From Syncephalis plumigaleata (Eukaryota > Zoopagomycota > Zoopagomycetes > Zoopagales > Piptocephalidaceae), in contig JAIXMF010000090.1 of the NCBI GenBank assembly GCA_025201365.1, forward strand, positions 1-42,038: a stretch of 42,038 nt of DNA, given 5' to 3'. The first letter of the stretch is position 1; the number at the start of each line of letters is the position of its first letter. Made by a program: the position numbers and the translations under genes. The notes under the pieces were generated by a model. It ran no database searches, was not told the origin of the DNA, and saw only the letters and a program-made list of their open reading frames with translations. Positions 1,284 to 26,047 of the stretch are shown here, piece after piece.

Positions 1284-1834
1284 CAGGCTATTTCCATCCA
1301 ATTTGCGCAGTTAGCCTTCTGTTTTTTATGAATAAATAATAGTTATAATAACACTTACAATTACCCTGTATTTTGGGGTGTAGATAGCGATAACCATCAC
1401 GGATGAATTGTTTTTTGTTGTTTGGTTCCCTCTTGATCCTGTTCTTCATTGCTTGAACGTTTAGAAGGAACGGTACTTCGTTCAAATTGTGTTGGAATAC
1501 CCTTTCCATCGCGAACACTGTGGATAATCTGAATGAAGTTCAGACATGCTGTTATATCCCGATTCCATAAATGATGATCAATAGCTACTTGTAAGTACAT
1601 GACATGGCAATATCCAATTATACTAGTACACTTGTATCGTCTACCTTATAGAATTGATGATGGTAGTTATCGCTATCAATAAATGATCCATTACTAATAC
1701 TGATTTGTTATTATCATGCTATATCAATTGGCATTTCTATGGTAATAATGGTGTTAACAATTGTGTTAATCTATTTATTAATAAACAGCAAATGTTAAAG
1801 GATAAATGCGCAAATTGGATGGAAAAATCCGCAG
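1284..1834 (-). mobile_element. Short TIR element relic with TnpB/Fanzor-like fragment (copy 1)
   Basis: The ends are inverted copies of a core reading CCATCCAATTTGCGCA (left near 1294, right inverted near 1804). The left end reads TA|CAGGCTATTTCC, like Tc1/mariner-type ends with a TA target duplication; the right outer end has diverged. Inside, the minus strand is open from 1600 to 1397. It encodes WNRDITACLNF at 1567-1535, which resembles the third RuvC-like motif of TnpB/Fanzor nucleases (a D/NRDxNAAxN pattern). It is followed by a basic tail that typically follows this motif in fungal relatives. No transposase or full nuclease is present, so it is a non-autonomous or decayed copy. A related, inverted and longer copy lies at 30476-31698. 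The family assignment is inference; the repeats are directly visible. Confidence 0.6.
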
Positions 1835-6550: not shown

Positions 6551-8155
6551 TTATTCATTGGCAACATTCAAGAATAAAGACTCGTCAATATCGAGAGAGT
6601 CCAAGTCGATATCCAAGTCATCTGCTAGTAGATCCCAGTCTTTCTCTTCATTTTCATCTGCTCTACCCGCATCATTACCATCATCATCACGATTACTGCT
6701 ATCCAATTGATTACCATGTACATTGATGCTATACTGTTCCGATAAGAATGATCTATACAATTGACTGCTAAATGATTCCTTCTCTTGTCCAATGTTCACT
6801 CGACCTATACGCTCCAAGCATCGATATCGATGTCGACATTGTCGTGCACTACGCTTGTACTTTAAATACTTTGAACATGACTCCCAGTCAAATCCCAATT
6901 GATTAGAGTCACCGGGTACCGACAATACTGCCGACATTAATTGCTCGTCCTCTTCCGGTGACCATTTCGAAAAGTTATACGTTGGATCGATGGCTGCATT
7001 CCATCGTGCACTACATTGACGTGGAGTACGACCGGGTATCATAGAGGCGACCATCTTCCAGCGTCTATTATACTGTTTAACACCTTGTCGTAGCAACTCG
7101 TCCTCCTCTTCAGTCCAGTGACCCGATTTAATACCAGGTGTCATCGAGGAACGCCATCGATCACGGCATTGTGTTGGCGTACGTGAACCCATGTGTCGTG
7201 CAATGGTTGTCCATAGAAAGCCGTACTCTGCCACTAGTCGTTTCAACCTTTCGCTTTCTTCTTCCGTCCATGTCGTCTTTCTACCACGGCGTATCGTATT
7301 TGAACTACTAGTACTACTACTACTAGCAGTAGCACTAGAGCTAGCTAAATGTTCCACCCATCGTCTACGACATTGACGATCAGTACGTCCTGGTACTTCA
7401 AGTGCCACCCTGGCCCATTCACCATATGGATGGGCGTTAACAGCTTCAGCTAGTAGGGCATCCTCCTCTGATGTCCAGTAGCCACGCTTAATTGTACTGG
7501 CAGTGGAGAAATACCATCGACTACGACATGAGTTTTGTGAACGACCCGGGAACAGCTTGGCTACCTTTGCCCATTCCATGCCGTATTCCTCGGCCGCTGC
7601 ACATAGTCTAGCGTCCTCTTCCTTTGACCAATAGTTGATGGCACGTCTACGTCTTACATTAAACGTAGATGCAGCAGCAGCAGCAGCAGTAGTAGTATTA
7701 TTGTTGTTGTTACTAGCTGTACTAGCATCATTTGTAGATGACTCGTTCACTTGTTCGGATTCATTGATGATATTCCAACGTGCGGCACATTGCTCGGGTG
7801 CTCGTTGTTGAACACCACTCGCCACTTGTAACCAACTCGTACCATGATGTTTTACACTCTTACATAGTGTATTGTCCTCCCAGGGTGACCATTGACCAAT
7901 TCTAACCAAATGTCCCTTGGATGGATCCTGACCTGCTGCTGCTGCGCTTATTGATGTTAGATGTGATGCTGTTATTACATTAGTGGATAGTTGCGATGAG
8001 GAAGACGTGTTTGTAGAATAGAATGACACTGGAATAATACGTGTATGTCTTTGTATTTTCATACATTTTGTTATTGTTGCTTTTGGAATACGTGCAAGAG
8101 TACAGAATGGCACAAGAAATACTGGTAGTGCGCACGAATAGTTGCCTAGTGTCAT
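6551..8155 (-). CDS. Six-repeat Myb/SANT domain protein
   Basis: Uninterrupted gene; the first in-frame ATG is at 8155 (534 residues) and a second at 8062. Six tandem Myb repeats occupy about residues 95-460. Each has a GxW(S/T)xEED...W..VA...PGRTxxQCRxRW pattern; repeats two, three and five are the most canonical. The sixth carries an insertion (SVPGDSNQLGF) before its second tryptophan. A polyalanine and Asn/Thr linker separates repeats one and two, and a Ser-rich linker separates three and four. The C-terminus is acidic (DLLADDLDIDLDSLDIDESL), as in activation domains. Multi-repeat Myb proteins of this kind bind DNA, for example SNAPc4 or Bas1/Cdc5-like factors; I cannot assign it to one. 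The second-ATG N-terminus (MKIQRHTRIIPVSFYSTNTS) looks like an organelle presequence. Confidence 0.85.
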   Translation of the reverse strand: MTLGNYSCALPVFLVPFCTLARIPKATITKCMKIQRHTRIIPVSFYSTNTSSSSQLSTNVITASHLTSISAAAAGQDPSKGHLVRIGQWSPWEDNTLCKSVKHHGTSWLQVASGVQQRAPEQCAARWNIINESEQVNESSTNDASTASNNNNNTTTAAAAAASTFNVRRRRAINYWSKEEDARLCAAAEEYGMEWAKVAKLFPGRSQNSCRSRWYFSTASTIKRGYWTSEEDALLAEAVNAHPYGEWARVALEVPGRTDRQCRRRWVEHLASSSATASSSSTSSSNTIRRGRKTTWTEEESERLKRLVAEYGFLWTTIARHMGSRTPTQCRDRWRSSMTPGIKSGHWTEEEDELLRQGVKQYNRRWKMVASMIPGRTPRQCSARWNAAIDPTYNFSKWSPEEDEQLMSAVLSVPGDSNQLGFDWESCSKYLKYKRSARQCRHRYRCLERIGRVNIGQEKESFSSQLYRSFLSEQYSINVHGNQLDSSNRDDDGNDAGRADENEEKDWDLLADDLDIDLDSLDIDESLFLNVANE

Positions 8156-8279
8156 ATTGAATAAGCAATAGTATACATGATATAAAGTAGCGGATATCTT
8201 CAAATGTCTTGTAGGAAAATAAAATAAAAAGAAAAAGCTGGCATTAAAAATAGCGCTATTTTAATTTTAAATAGCGTTT

Positions 8280-8536
8280 TATTGATGAGAGGCCAAAAAT
8301 CTTTATAAAGGAGCCGGTGAGTCCAGCTCACCGGCGACCACTACTTTTCTCCTTTATTCGTTTGTTGGCCATCTCTCCCACCCATCCACAGACCCTTATG
8401 CCTGGTGCGGAGAGTTAACTTTTCTCCTTTATTGTCGGTTTCCTCTTTGCTCACTAGCCTACTAATATTCCCTTTCACCCCCCATTAGCTCACATAGTTA
8501 ACAAATTTTCAATAAAGTTTTTGGCCCCAGGCAATA
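8280..8536. mobile_element. MITE-like element with Tc1/mariner-style ends
   Basis: The left end reads TATTGATGAGAGGCCAAAAA. The right end, reverse-complemented, reads TATTGCCTGGGGCCAAAAA, both followed by CTTTAT (one extra T on the left). TA lies at both boundaries. The interior holds no open frame but is highly structured: a perfect 9-bp stem with 5-base loop at 8313-8335 is enclosed by ATAAAGGAG (8305-8313) pairing with CTCCTTTAT (8349-8357). A further TCTCCTTTATT copy occurs near 8416. About 257 bases with GGCCAAAAA ends fits a miniature inverted-repeat element mobilised by a Tc1/mariner-type transposase (inference). It lies between the Myb gene and the small zinc-finger gene. Confidence 0.5.
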
Positions 8537-8648: not shown

Positions 8649-9015
8649 ATGACTCGTGGTAAACAAAAGGAACAAGCAAGGTAGCATTGTTTGTTAGTTA
8701 GTAACAAGTAGAATATATGCTTATAGGAGTATTTTATTATTATTATTAGGGAACGTGCACAGAAACTTGCTGATAAAAATAAAGGCGGAAAATCACAGCT
8801 AAATGCGCGTGCTGCAGGTCTAAAAATTACATGTCCTACTTGCAAGGTATGTGTTTAACTAGAAGAATATACGTGTATTGAGTAGTTCATCTTCAACTAA
8901 TATGATATTCATGATGATATAGTTAGCAGTGCCTAATTATAAATTATTGCAAACACATATGGAAGCAAAGCATCCTAAAGATCCTATTCCACCTGAGAGT
9001 ACCTTTACTTCCTAG
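8649..9015 (+). CDS. ZNF706/SERF-type small zinc-finger protein
   Basis: Three exons, 8649-8680, 8750-8846 and 8923-9015, give 73 residues. The N-terminus MTRGKQKEQARERAQK is the basic SERF-like segment. It is followed by a Lys-rich stretch and a single C2H2 finger (CPTC, then HMEAKH). The finger runs into the family's diagnostic HPKDPIPPE end (human ZNF706 ends HPKTPLPPE). Both introns start GTAGCA/GTATGT and end TAG. Because all three exons are tiny, this gene is easily missed by frame-based searching. Members are conserved in eukaryotes; ZNF706 is linked to control of self-renewal and translation in animals, and the SERF segment relates to proteins that modulate amyloid assembly. The fungal role is unknown. 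Confidence 0.9.
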
Positions 9016-9355
9016 TTACTTAGGACATATTACTCATTCTCTTTCTTTCTTGATCTATACAATTACACTAATAGCTATAATATTACATGGTTGCTTCCAT
9101 GGCAATTAATAAACATTATAGCGTAATCACTAACATCATAATCAATATATTGTAAATGTAATACTGATCTAAATGACACACACTTATTCATTCATTCGTT
9201 TGTTCGTTTAATTGCTAGTTGAATGATATTGACATCATACTTGATGTATAAGAAAAGGAAAAGAGAAAACAGCAACCATATGACTACATATCTGTATATC
9301 CTATGGTAGGACGATGTGAGTATTGTCCCGATAATGGTGATCTTTTCATTTCAAT
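9016..9355. other. Convergent 3' spacer
   Basis: AT-rich DNA between the ends of the ZNF706-type gene and the unrecognised 992-residue gene. It contains AATAAA-like signals near 9109 (CAATTAATAAAC). No gene seen. Confidence 0.4.
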
Positions 9356-12300
9356 CTACATGTTGCATGCTCGAGCGGCAGTAGTATAATTTGATGAATT
9401 CAACTCGTGCATCGTCTTTTCGGCCGTATCTCTCGCCTATAATGATCACACTTGGTCAGTAACACGCACACACATATAGCTAGTATCGACTGCATGATTA
9501 CTTACAACATTTGGTAATGATGCCGCCACTGCTAATAATGTGGTGATACCGTCATTCTCGTTGTAACCAAGGCGTGTTCCTACAAAGCAACGATTACATC
9601 CACTGATGTATCCTTCACCGAGTGAATCTAATCCACGTGTGGAACGCGCTAGATTTGCCGTATTCAAGATGCAAGTTTCCGTTAACACATCATTGTCATC
9701 TGGTCTTGGTCGTACACTTCTTGGTATGTTTGTACGTTCACGCTTCTTGGTCTTGTCCACGGGACTCATCAATACATCACCGTCTTCGTCTTCATCTTCG
9801 CTGCTATCGCTGTCCATGCAGTGTTCTTTGTAATTGTTTTGTCCGTCAATCTGTTCCTCCGCCGGAATGACATCGGGCACTTCGACGTGTTGCTCTTTAT
9901 CGGCAGCACACGATTTCTTTGTACGTAGCAATGATCTAGCCACGTAGATCGGTTTATCGGCGTCGCTTGATGCCACTTTGTAGATGTACACCTCGATGGC
10001 CTGTAGATCACTGTCACCGTTGGCTTCCGCTAGTTTAATTTGTAGACAGGCGGCAAATCCTTCTGCTGCATGTGTGACTACATCAGCAATGTCTACCGTG
10101 AATGTCTCTTGATTCTCTGATAATTCCCTATGTACAATACCCGAAGGTAGACAGCGACAACTAAGACTTAACACAAAGGTGGATGCCACCTTCACTTGAG
10201 GATGAATGTTTAGGAATTGTATACGTAGTGCTATTACAAGTGTGTGTGTGTAAGTTAAACGGATCAATCGCTACTTAATAATACGCATAGCTACTTACTC
10301 GTTTTTGAACCATAACCGCTACACTCCATGCTCAGATTGTTGTTCTCGGCATCAATGTGTGGACGACAGGTCGATATGTTAGTGCTGGCGACATTGGGAC
10401 CACCGAAGCTAAGGAAATGCTTCACGTAGATTTGACCACGATGCAATAATGGTGCGCTATACTCGAATAGACCACCTGGCAATGCTAGTAGATCAACACG
10501 AACGATATCGAGGAATCGAGCAATAGCCGCACCATCATCTGGTGCATCTGCCGTGTCCATCATACCGTATACAACGGATGCACCCGCACGACCAATCAGG
10601 AAACTATTAACCACGTATTGTCGATGCTTGCTAACGAGTGTCGTGGCGTGTAACTCCTCCACGGCGTAGATACGACGACACGTCTTGCCGGGTTTCAATA
10701 TCAAGTCGTATAGATCGTAGCGTAGTGGCAGCATCACGGCACGATCACCAGGACGAATGGACATGATTCGTCTACCCGACAATGGTGTCTCGTAGATTCG
10801 TCGCAGTTGCATGACGGAATTTTCGTTATGCTCCACCAGCATGAGTGGTTCCTCGTCCTTCAACGTCAATCGATTCTCGATCACTCTATTGATATCTAAT
10901 AGTGCTTCATGATTCTTCCAGCTAATTACGCATAAAACATTAGTACAGCGCATTTATAACATCGACAGATTACACGCTTACTAGAAACCAGATGCCGGTG
11001 CATACAACATATAGCCGGTGTAGATATCTTTAAACTTGGATGTTTTAGGTGGACCTGGCAATGTTACAAATATATCTAGTACAGCTGGTTCCAAGTATCC
11101 GTCACTATAAATAAACAAATATAGTGAGTAAGACATTATTGTTATATATGAATAATACTTACTCGTTCGTATCAGGTGATGAAGGAGGAGCTGCTGCTGC
11201 TGCTGCCGCTGCCGACGTTCTTGATGCCGATACTGCTTTTGCCAAAAGTTGAGCACTATCCTGTCCAGGTCCAACGTTGACATTATGCTCAGTAGCCAAA
11301 AGTGTTATGGGCTGTTTATCAAACGCCTCTGGGGATTCGGCGTATTTTCTCGCAGCACTCTGGTATTTGCCGAACATTTCACCATTGGTGTACTCTTCCA
11401 TATGACTATCACGTCCTTTGATACTCGCCACTAGATTGAATGACACGCCATCTCTTAGGGGATAGGTCCATTCCTGGGTGTCACCGGCAAGTACGTGATT
11501 GGCGATCGTGTCAAAGAATTGCTTCTGACTGAAACCACGTAGAGGGAAGCCAGGACTATCCGCCTTCACCACCATGGCTGCCAGTTTATACCGATGGTCG
11601 CCGTCCTCCTCGACGATCTGTTCCTGGCTAGGTTTCGGCTTGCTAGGATTCACCTGCCACGACACGACAAGGAAATGACGATCCTTTTGTGGGTACGTTA
11701 CGCCGTTGGCATGATCCTGCGCGGTAATCACTTCATAGACGATATTACCGCGTGATTTACCATCAAGTGTGGATAAAAAGTAACCGGTACCCGGTTTATC
11801 GAGCGATACTTCCGATGTCAAGTCATCGCCCACCATGCCTGTCACTACGAAATGACTCGCCTTACGTAGAACGATATTTGGATGTTCCACGAACACATTA
11901 ACGAATAGACTGTCCTCTGGATCACTAACAATATACGAGGGTGGGTTAAGTTGATGCTCGAACGAGTTTTGTCGATTTAGACGTGGATGATACTTGGCAC
12001 TATTCAGGATAAATCGTTGTAATTAGCAATGAGATATGCGACTATTAGTAGTAGTAGTAGTAGTAGTAACTATAGCAATGATAGCGCTTCTTACCGTGGT
12101 GCAGCAAAAAAGTGCGGCTCATGATAAAAGATGTTCTCGTGTGCCTTCTGCTCCTCCAGCGAAATAAACATTTTACCTTCATTGGCACGCTCGATGGTGC
12201 CACGTACCAAGAAGCGTACACCGTCAATGTCACCGCCATGGAAGATGGGACAGTTATTGGGCATCAACCGATGCTTGAAATTCCATTCGTATGCATGCTT

Positions 12301-12684
12301 CAACGGCTCGTTATATCGATTTAGGTCGAGGTTGGGCTCGCACTCCGCCAACGTCATGAAATGTCGAACCTCGCCTTTACCGGCGGGTGCTTTAAACGCG
12401 AACACCGCGTAGCCTTGTATCTCCCGTTCGGGGTCATCTTTCTTCACGATACCAAGCGCGAATACACCTTGACAAGCTTGTCTAGCATCTTCATCACCGA
12501 AATTAAACACAGTTTTACGACCCTCCGTAAATGCAAGCGGCATGGGTATGTGTGCCGGTTCATTGGCACCCATTATATGCGTAATGCCATGAAATGTCAG
12601 ACTAGAGTGACTACACGTCACCTCTACATTCATGACGGGCACACTAGGCTGTGCCTGTGTTTTGGCTTGCGCGGACATGGTCAA
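9356..12684 (-). CDS. Unrecognised 992-residue cytosolic-type protein, six exons
   Basis: Exons: 12684-12095, 11999-11163, 11104-10982, 10921-10299, 10230-9506 and 9436-9356. All five introns (about 59-95 bases) have GTAAGN donors and AG acceptors, and phases agree throughout. No signal peptide or membrane segment is apparent. The N-terminal ~200 residues are beta-rich (for example SSLTFHGITHIMGANEPAHI and GDIDGVRFLVRGTIERANEG). A polyalanine linker near residues 455-463 separates this half from a second beta-rich half (DGYLEPAVLDIFVTLPGPPK). An acidic patch (DSDSSEDEDEDGD) followed by a basic KTKKRER segment lies near residues 845-865 and could be a nuclear-type signal. Coding DNA is more GC-rich than its surroundings. 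I recognise no domain, catalytic motif or family. A lineage-specific structural protein is possible. The exon model is well supported; the function is unknown. Confidence 0.8.
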
Positions 12685-12982: not shown

Positions 12983-15900
12983 TTATTTATTACTGCTACT
13001 GCCATTGTTATGGTTGTTATCATTACAACACCATTGATTGAGTACCTCGTAAAGTGTATGTTTTACGACGGGTTTAGTTAGATAATCATCTATACCTAAT
13101 AGTCGAGCATTACTGTTATTAGTAATAGAATAATAAGTATGCCTTAGTGATATTAACCTACCATATTCATGACATCGTTCTCGTATTCGATCCCCACTCA
13201 TACCGGTCAATGCAATGATAGGCATACGAGGCCGACCATTTAATACGCATTGTTGTCGTATTTTGTTGGCTGACTGACATCCATCCATGCCTACATATAC
13301 ATATGTATACATATAATCAAGTGACATTAGTAACAAGTAATCCTAAGAGTAAAAGTACACTTACCGGGTAACTAGATAGATACGTGTATAATTATAATAA
13401 AAAGACATTTAATATATTATGACTTTCTCTTACTTCTTACTTACCTGGTAATCCATAAATATCAATGCATAATTCTTTTCCATAGTTAAGCTTAATGCTA
13501 ATGAATAGAATGTGAATAGTATGTTAGCCATTTATTCGTGTTCACTACCGTCGAATCTCACCTTCTTCGCCACTAGATGCATGTTCAGCTCGATAACCAA
13601 AATTCTTGATAATATGACACATAAGCTAGATAGGTATTATTAGTTAGATATCTCGTATAATATACAGTACGAACAGCTTACCTTAGCATTCAATGGATTG
13701 TCTTCAACCACTAGAATCACTTGCTCTTGACGTAGCGACATTTCTTTATCCGATTTCGTTGCTTGTTCTTGCGTTCTATCCTGACTTGTACTTGATCTTG
13801 ATCGTTTATCACGCACAACTTCTTTCGTGCCATCATCACCACCATCATCATTTTCATTGCTAGTGGATATGATATCCTGCATTGGAACAATATCATCACT
13901 ATTGTTTCCATCTTTTGCTTGATGAAAACCGCTATCATTGTCATCGTGATATTGTCCACTTGCATGTTCTTTATCCGTAATATGTTCGCCTAATCCGCTA
14001 CGAGAAGGATGCGGTGTTATCGGAATAGGTGCAACTAATGCTTTCGATAAATGTGCATCTTCCTGCTCATGCATTGAATTGTCATCGTAAGCTCGTTTAC
14101 GTTTTAACTTGTCCAATTTTCGTGATTGTTGTAAGTGTCGGTGTAAACGAACAATTCTAAGCCATTTGAGGATACACTTAGTAATCTCATTTTGACGCGG
14201 TGGTTTCACTACATCAAGTGTTGTCCATTCAACTAGCGTTTCATGTTCAATCGAGAATAGCGGTTGGTCATTGGGACTAGTGCCAATGGGTAATAGCCTA
14301 AGATAAAGCTGATAATCCGAGACATCGAGATTGGGGCGCGTGGTTAATGCGCTGTATTTACGAACTGTCGATTGTTGATCATCATCAATACTAGGAGTCT
14401 TTTTAGAAATAGGATCTGGTAGTAGCGTGTTCAAACTAGCGGGTAGCGTTGTTTCCTGCGCCGTATCCTCATAGTCACTTGGTAAAAACCAAATAATACG
14501 TTCAAGTAGATCGTTGTGTACTTCCTTGGAACTCTTGCCCAGACACTCCTTTAGTATTTGCTCTATCGTCAGATCGGATATCACAATTGTACACATCATG
14601 AGGTGAAGTTTCTCCTCGAAAGGTAAACCCGTGCTATTCGATGGAATTAGAAAGACGTGTACATCGGTGAACTTCCATCCCCTTAGTTGTTCCATGATCA
14701 TATCAGCTACCGCCATACGCTTGACAACTATTGCAACGAAATGATCCGCTAATTGCGTGTAGAACTTGCCCACTCCACTGCCATGATGTGACAGTGTGGT
14801 CTGCGCTGCCTCCGATGCTGGTGGCGACAACGTGCTAGGCGTGTTTATCGTCAGTGAAGGCGACATTAGACCGTGGTCGTCGACACGCTCCAGTTCGGCC
14901 ACATTGATCGTGAACTTGAACGTCGATCCCTGGTTTGGTATGGAACTCGCCAACCATATATCACCGCCCATGTTACGTGCCATTTCCTTGCAAATCGCTA
15001 AACCCAATCCTACAAATGTGCCAGTTCTGATTAACCAACAAGTATAACCACATCATTCCCATTCAACTATCGGTACTTACCACTGCCACTCGTACGATGC
15101 TTACTATCGCTAAGCTGCATAAATCGACGGAACAATAGTGGCTGTGCATTCTTCGGTATGCCCAGTCCCTGATCTTCTATCGAAAACTCTAGGGTAACCG
15201 GTTTGCCTACATGATAATCGGAAGCAGTATCGGATGATAATTGCCTTCTCGCGCTATCTCGAAAGGCATGCGGACCACGTTTATTCGTCTCGCTTGAAAT
15301 CACATCATGATAATCGCCCATCACCGTGTCGGCATGTATGACGGATTTTAGCAGAGTCACCCGTATGATAATGACAGTATCCTCTGGCGAGAACTTTTCC
15401 ATATCACTTTCGTTAGGCATACGTCTTGTATTTTAGCATCATCATTACTATTATTACCTTTATAGCATTCGATAATAGATTGCCCAGGATCTGACGTACT
15501 CGGAAATCATCGGTTAATATCATGCTTGGACAATCGGCCGCTATCAATGGCACCAATTCCAGTGATTTCTGTCGTGCCATTGGTGATAGTAAACCTAGTG
15601 GTATAATGAGACAAATGCACTAACAATCGCAGTAGTAACTGATACTTACGGAGTGTCTCATCAATGATGCCGTGAACTGAACAATTAATCAGTTGGAAGT
15701 CCATCGTGTTAGATTGCACCTTGGATAGATCAAGCATTTGATTTACTAGACGTAGCAACATTTCACCACCACTACGTATATCACGACAATGCTCCTGTTG
15801 AATGGGCGTCAATTCAGTTTCCCTTAACAAATCTACAAATCCTAGTACGCCATTGAGTGGAGTACGCTAACATCGAATCAGTATGACAAGCAGTAATAAT

Positions 15901-20478: not shown

Positions 20479-23407
<2,929 letters not shown>

Positions 23408-23590: not shown

Positions 23591-25721
23591 TCATGCTTTG
23601 TGCACCATTCCCTGTCGCTGATTCATATCGACATCTGCACCGCCCAACTCTTCGAGTGTACGTCCTGCCGTCTCGGGTACATAACGCCACACGAACCACC
23701 AAGCAAGTACGCCTAATGACGCGTATAGCCAGAATGTACCCGCTGCCGTGATGGCATGCGTTAATGAAAGGAAACTAACGGATACGATAAGATTGCCCAG
23801 CCAATTAACACTGGTGGCTACACCGCCTGCTCGTCCACGTAGTGCCAACGGGAAGAGTTCCGATTGAATGAGCCAGGGCACATTACCCAATCCCAATGCG
23901 TAGGAGGCCACGTAAAATACGAGTGCCGCCAATGCGAACCAGGACCATCCCGCGCTATTCTCGCATTGTAACGATCCAATTGGTAGGTTGCCAGGATTGC
24001 CATTTTGCGATAGTATATCCGGTAGGAGCACCTGACTCTGCGGCATGCAACGATCGAGTGTTGCCACGTAGGCACATCGATTATCGGCCACACATGAGCC
24101 GCAATGAACGTAGGAGCTACAGTCCGCTTGATAGGGACGTAGACCGAGTAGGAATGCGAACGCCATACCCATCAGTAAAAGACCGAGGGCCATCGCCATG
24201 ATCGTATAGAGAAGGATACGTCGTCGTCCCACTCGATCCACGTAGCGAATGGCCACCAATGTCATGAACATATTTGTGGCGACCACTAAGATGGAGAATG
24301 TCACGGCACTTTGCTTATCGCGAAATCCGCTCATTCGTAGGATACTCGCCGAGTAGTACATGGCCGTGTTGAAACCGCTCAATTGCTGGAATGCTTGTAG
24401 ACCACAAGCCACCAGAAGTGAGCGACGATACTGAGGTCGAAGTAGATCGGCGTAGGTGGTACCGGCAGTAAGTGTAGCCGCATGTTCTATGGCTAATAGT
24501 TCATCTTCAACTTGTCGACTAACTTGCTCCTTGAATTTCATTTCATTTGCAGTATTTGCTACATGATTGCCATTATTATTTTTATCAGCATTATTACTAG
24601 AGCGTCGTAGTCGAAGACAAGCGGGTAACGAGACTGGAGTAGATGCATAAACCCGAGTTAACATGCGACGAGCAGCTGCCGTATTATCAGCTCGTGATCC
24701 TCGTTTACGTCGTAATAAATAGCGTGGACTTTCAGGCAGGAATGGCATACCTACACATTGGTGCATATCACAATAGTTAGTCATTGCAACATGATGATAG
24801 TCATCGTATTCCATTAGTGATCTATTGATTTATCAATTGACTTACCTATTAATTGAATGATAGGTGGAACACCCGCAATACCAAGCATAATACGCCAGCC
24901 ATTGGTTACATTGCCTAGACCGGCACTCACGCAATAGGCGACAAGTTGACCACCGGTAATCATTAATACGTTCATCGTAACAAGTTGACCACGATATTGA
25001 CTAGCAATTGATTTAGCATATGTAGCATAGTACAATGTGCTATTATTACTATCACTCCTTTACTTACCGCGGTGATACTTCACTAATATAGGTAGGCACT
25101 ACCATACTGGCGAGACCAACACCAATGCCTACTACAAATCGTCCTACTAGTAATACTTCGTAACCTGGTGCAAAAGCCATAAGTAAAGCCCCGAGTAGGA
25201 ATACAATCGAGGATAGTATCGTTACGGGTCGTCGACCGAATCGATCACTAAGAAATCCCGCAGAGAATCCACCGAAAATGGCACCTAACGTTGTCGCTAT
25301 CTATCACGTTAGCGATACGTACCTTGCTATCAACAGCCATAAAAGCACACAACTTACCACCTACGATTAGCTCCACTTGTAGCACACTCAAGTGAAACTC
25401 CTCTTCTATGAAGAGCATAGCACCGGAAATGACACCCGTGTCATAACCGAACAAGAAACCACCGATAGCTGCTAGCGTGGAAATAAATAATACATACCAC
25501 GATACGGGCAGTTGGTCGGTCTCGTCCACCTCGACTATCTCACCAGCTTGATGGCATAGACCAGCAAGTGGTTCAGCATCCTCCTCATTATTTGTATTAA
25601 TAAATCTTTTGTCTTTTTCTTCCTGCGTGGCGGCTACATTAGATACGATAGTAGTATCGCCGCGTACATGTCGGTTACGCGTAGTATCTGCTTCTTCACC
25701 TTTTATCTTGTGTGATACCAT
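23591..25721 (-). CDS. Sugar/myo-inositol transporter (MFS) with cysteine-rich loop
   Basis: Major facilitator of the sugar-porter family, probably a proton-coupled myo-inositol or hexose carrier. Exons 25721-25358, 25296-25068, 25000-24846 and 24750-23591 give 635 residues. Sugar-porter signatures are present: GFLFGYDTGVISGAML in helix one, GFLSDRFGRRP after helix two, PESPRYLL after helix six, QQLSGFNTAMYYSASI in helix seven, GRRRILL, and PETAGRTLEEL at the end. Between helices nine and ten there is a ~55-residue loop with six cysteines (460-512; DCSSYVHCGSCVADNRCAYV). This resembles the PSI-like loop of animal SLC2A13 and plant INT2-type inositol transporters, which argues for inositol. 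The central loop carries an Asn-rich low-complexity stretch. Convergent with MCM7. Confidence 0.9.
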
Positions 25722-26047
25722 ATCACTTAGCGTTACTATAATGAATATACCTGAATGTCAAATAGCAATAACAATAAAATATGGTTACGAAGTGCTGCAA
25801 TGTAATAATTAAAAAGGAGTCTCAACAACGCAGAGGGGAAAAGAACTTTTCTATCTATTAATAAAGTAGAAATAATTTTAGAAGCGAAAAAAAACACATG
25901 TACGCCAACGTTAAAAATAATCCTGTTCCGTTGTTACACGATACCGTTTCAGGTAAGACACTTTCATGTTTATTACCGAATATATTGGATCAAGCTACCA
26001 TTAACTAATACTATCTTTTTATTTAAATATCCATCATGTAGATTCGA

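Follow-up and report, generated by a model that had tools for sequence, protein, structure and literature searches.

The window, a stretch of 42,038 nucleotides (nt) of Syncephalis plumigaleata that comprises the whole contig JAIXMF010000090.1 (C374 of the 383 contigs of this 32.6 Mb genome), carries on its minus strand a gene of six exons, which were assembled from the sequence and joined in phase to 990 codons. The stop of the gene is at 9356. A preliminary description of this DNA had the same six-exon, in-phase gene ending at 9356, while its start at 12684 and its 992 residues were two codons off: the first in-frame ATG is at 12678 and the product has 990 amino acids (aa). The exons are as follows, the second copy being the counterpart on contig C223 described below.

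12095..12678, minus strand: exon 1, with the start codon ATG (12676-12678), codes for aa 1-194 and two further bases; splice sites conserved in the second copy
11163..11999, minus strand: exon 2, ends two bases after the codon of aa 473; splice sites conserved in the second copy
10982..11104, minus strand: exon 3, ends two bases after the codon of aa 514; splice sites conserved in the second copy
10299..10921, minus strand: exon 4, ends one base after the codon of aa 722; splice sites conserved in the second copy
9506..10230, minus strand: exon 5, ends with the codon of aa 964; splice sites conserved in the second copy
9356..9436, minus strand: exon 6, aa 965-990 and stop, junction based on splice signals only

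All five introns were of the GT-AG type with GTAAG donors, and retention of any of them introduced in-frame stops. The intron before exon 4 interrupts a codon between SGF and W, after the second base. The polyalanine linker and the acidic-then-basic patch near the C-terminus, seen already in the preliminary description, were located at these positions.

11189..11212, minus strand: polyalanine run (aa 458-465) that separates the halves of the protein, with a 12-nt length difference between the copies
9782..9814, minus strand: acidic run, aa 862-872, with a 6-nt in-frame indel between the copies
9740-9748, minus strand: basic KKR, aa 884-886, after the acidic run

Codon scores were calculated relative to four open frames nearby that match Pfam families, whose codon usage served as reference. 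Only the annotated frame scored clearly positive (+0.21 bits per codon), in agreement with the coding-like codon choice noticed before; the other sense frames had -0.22 and -0.14, the antisense frames -0.13 to +0.01 bits per codon. A counterpart of the window on contig C223, around 1.60-1.63 Mb, had 97-98 % DNA identity over window positions 1-25571, the extent retrieved for comparison, with two gaps of about 300 bases; it probably represents the other haplotype, the fungus being heterozygous or dikaryotic. Window positions 1362-1676 and 8253-8532 did not align to this counterpart. The two gene copies differed by 63 exonic substitutions, distributed as 10/6/47 over the codon positions 1/2/3; of the altered codons, 47 were synonymous and 15 non-synonymous (dN 0.0066, dS 0.0755, dN/dS 0.09). 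Exonic indels were limited to the two in the polyalanine run (12 nt) and the acidic run (6 nt), both in frame, and GT and AG of all five introns were kept in the C223 copy. Zero differences were observed in intron 5 and exon 6, thus the last exon junction is read from the splice signals alone. This invariant end would fit an artefact or a pseudogene. Against it stand the low dN/dS, the in-frame indels, the conserved splice sites and the positive score of the coding frame, and we consider such an explanation practically negligible. The window gene is confirmed as a real, constrained gene.

As judged by its sequence, the window protein belongs to no named family. Pfam searches up to an E value of 10 retrieved for the whole protein only FAM25 (E 0.21), and among exons 1, 2, 4 and 5 searched singly the best match was again FAM25, with exon 5 (E 0.047); this candidate was rejected as short and below the cut-off. 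With the same queries neither PF06369 (Anemone_cytotox), searched up to E 10, nor PF07367 (FB_lectin) gave a match. In a genome-wide search PF06369 had no match, and the control genomes gave none either. The sequence search of the whole protein against PDB yielded nothing. When exon 2 and its relatives were combined into a profile and compared to the PDB sequences, the immunoglobulin-type Fc receptor-like protein 5 was hit (E 0.031 over the whole chain); none of the individual stretches reached significance, and the match was rejected as chance-like. Also rejected were PRC2_EED_ins (E 1.4 in one of four members searched with exon 2) and NCBIfam PRK11553, a lone row at chance level (E 0.032) across four exon pieces. 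With exon 2 or its profile as query, phage records gave no match, and none of the 73 pattern matches in viral contigs or the 44 in contigs of prokaryote genomes was confirmed. The statement of the preliminary description that no family is recognisable by sequence held for Pfam, PDB and NCBIfam. Relatives were present in the genome itself: six dispersed copies, about 96 % alike, which are described below.

Profile alignments identified repeated modules within the protein, largely one per exon.

12139..12633, minus strand: module 1, about aa 16-180
11384..11908, minus strand: module 2, about aa 226-400, candidate for a cytolysin/lectin fold
10336..10674, minus strand: about aa 598-710, which may be the core of a third module

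Twenty-three profile pairs (1 + 14 + 8) were tested against shuffled sequences, with counts uncorrected for multiple testing; an earlier inspection of 28 pairs had used no shuffles. Five of the 23 pairs stood out. The score of module 1 against module 2 was reached by none of 200 shuffles, and by this comparison the two modules repeat one another. Module 2 against three overlapping cuts of exon 4 gave 0, 0 and 3 of 150 shuffles, which makes a module in exon 4 possible; P4 against P5 of the dispersed relatives gave 1 of 150. The remaining 18 pairs were not above the shuffles; they include module 1 against exon 4 and, within the set of eight, every pair that involved the third segment of the relatives. 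When exon 4 was pooled with this third segment, 144 of 150 shuffles reached the score against module 2. A fourth module in exon 5 is not claimed: a hairpin motif had its best score in the second half of the protein at aa 724, with P 0.09 in shuffles, and the profile alignment failed.

Structure prediction with AlphaFold2 (AF2) yielded for module 2 (exon 2) a model with a predicted local distance difference test score (pLDDT) of 36 and a predicted template modelling score (pTM) of 0.38, and for exon 1 (residues 13-194) a model with pLDDT 35. In a VIA-align comparison of the module 2 model, the cytolysin/lectin fold occupied ranks 1-11 and 13 of 23 rows, with the highest Z scores for sticholysin II and other actinoporins. 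Foldseek found no match at E 0.001 or better for the exon 2 model in PDB or BFVD, nor for the exon 1 model in PDB. Structural searching, as proposed in the preliminary description, was thus without a significant result in Foldseek and pointed in VIA-align, at low model confidence, to the cytolysin/lectin fold, no other structural match being prominent. With genomic relatives, repeated modules and this low-confidence match to a known fold, the earlier "unknown fold" is not the best reading. The cytolysin/lectin fold is a moderately supported candidate for module 2, and the other modules may share it. The same models also allow for a lineage-specific fungal protein of repeated beta-sandwich modules with a different fold, the AF2 model being misleading: the pLDDT values are low for both exons, Foldseek was significant for neither model, the best structural match of exon 1 differed from that of exon 2, and Pfam had no match. 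This is a distinct possibility, although less likely than not.

The top Z scores to actinoporins raise the question of a pore-forming cytolysin proper, which would insert an N-terminal helix. In actinoporins, an amphipathic N-terminal helix lines the pore (PMC9526159). Ahead of the first conserved strand of the window protein, however, only about 15 residues were read by eye, two of them proline, which leaves no room for a pore helix, and in the exon 1 model no helix precedes this strand, again by eye. The absence of a membrane segment, as described before, was confirmed: no transmembrane-like stretch exists in the window protein (best 19-residue hydropathy 1.46). A signal peptide was not seen by reading, which suggests an intracellular location. 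Moreover, fruit-body lectins have the same fold with roles in binding and defence (PMC10890737). A pore-forming cytolysin is therefore very improbable.

Without a signal peptide, a membrane stretch or room for a pore helix, a multivalent intracellular recognition protein is the best reading. We give an even chance to the full proposal, that the constrained gene, present at a single locus, encodes an intracellular protein of at least two, perhaps three diverged cytolysin/lectin beta-sandwich modules, most likely for multivalent recognition. The polyalanine linker would part modules 1 and 2 from the possible third, with the acidic/basic tail following. Each sandwich may expose a surface that binds a glycan, the head group of a lipid or another protein, and several sandwiches per chain would raise the avidity. 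The acidic run with KKR could conceivably act as a nuclear signal. A role in defence or in self/non-self recognition may be envisaged. In an allorecognition protein of Podospora anserina, specificity is determined by a domain that has a lectin fold and is a relative of the fruit-body lectins (PMC10890737); there, as proposed for the window protein, a related lectin fold is used inside a fungus for recognition. In contrast to that protein, the window protein has no HET domain in Pfam and has several modules. It differs from the fungal fruit-body lectins (PF07367; XCL, SRL, ABL) by the lack of a profile match and by at least two modules in 990 aa, whereas the solved lectin chains have 141-143 residues, and from actinoporins and actinoporin-like proteins (PF06369) by the lack of a profile match and of space for the pore helix, and by its tandem modules. 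No comparable tandem protein turned up in the literature consulted, and no wider claim is made. Should the prediction be right, the cytolysin/lectin fold, which solved toxins and mushroom lectins carry as one module each, also occurs in a fungus in a multi-module, intracellular form. If the prediction fails, the window gene remains a constrained member of an unnamed fungal family built of repeats.

All six dispersed relatives were broken as sequenced, with frameshifts. They are collinear with the window gene in three segments; in module 2, identity to it was 27-32 % in the four copies, out of six, for which a value was obtained. One intron position is clearly and one probably shared, as seen by eye in one copy, in which an intron splits the SGF/W codon after the second base as in the window gene. 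The first 3.3-3.4 kb of the copies had about 94-96 % DNA identity. In L029-L033 the 3' part (after about 7100 in the orientation of the alignment) was far more diverged, with 35-75 % between pieces at the protein level. The copy L028 (from contig C112; L028:3670-8057) is a 4.3-kb insert between two 45-bp direct repeats that are 96 % alike. Its left flank was found again on contigs C329 (98 %) and C359 (96 %), where it continues directly into about 320 bases of the right flank with a single 45-bp copy; the right flank past these 320 bases was unmatched in the C329 and C359 stretches examined. Since the site exists empty on both contigs, the L028 unit was inserted as a block. Such an insert, an uninterrupted site on two other contigs and six broken copies about 96 % alike would suit a mobile family, of which the window gene is the tamed form. 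This origin is improbable: introns are kept in the copies, the ends of the pairwise matches among them do not coincide, searches of viral contigs and of viral folds (BFVD) were negative, and ten flanking frames contained no transposase or reverse transcriptase at E 0.01. The flanking frames had host-like domains (helicase, armadillo, weak kinase matches), and RVT_2 (E 0.023, below the cut-off) was in a segment of the relatives themselves, not in a flank. The relation can equally be read as a host gene that gave rise to duplicates. Frames following two of the copies (L029:584-1996 and L033:7821-8741) had a weak protein-kinase match below the Pfam cut-off (E 8.1e-5 and 3.2e-5) and are part of a longer block common to both.

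A dispersed, repeatedly decaying branch is the pattern expected of recognition genes that duplicate and die. Rather tentatively, we propose an undescribed fungal family of intracellular proteins with two to three or more cytolysin/lectin-fold modules in tandem, represented by one conserved locus and a fast-moving, dispersed and decaying branch. If so, roughly one module per exon would illustrate the way in which a fold of toxins and lectins came to serve in a multivalent receptor or scaffold inside the cell, and a duplicating, decaying family would provide, if the fold holds, a new candidate among the recognition and defence proteins of fungi.

The window gene is followed by a convergent small gene on the plus strand (8650-9020), which resembles those of the 4F5/zinc-binding kind. 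On the minus strand, 6554-8260 encodes a protein in which Myb repeats occupy six stretches (Myb_DNA-binding, E 1.9e-79), and 12983-15052 is part of a hybrid histidine kinase. The HATPase end of this kinase lies at 13643-15052 (E 1.7e-6), and a receiver domain was recognised by reading at its 3' end. Searches of the genome gave no match for CotH and four matches for chitin synthase, as fits a fungus that is probably not one of the Mucorales. An MCM7-like replication licensing gene (21705-23404) adjoins a sugar transporter at 23594-25757.
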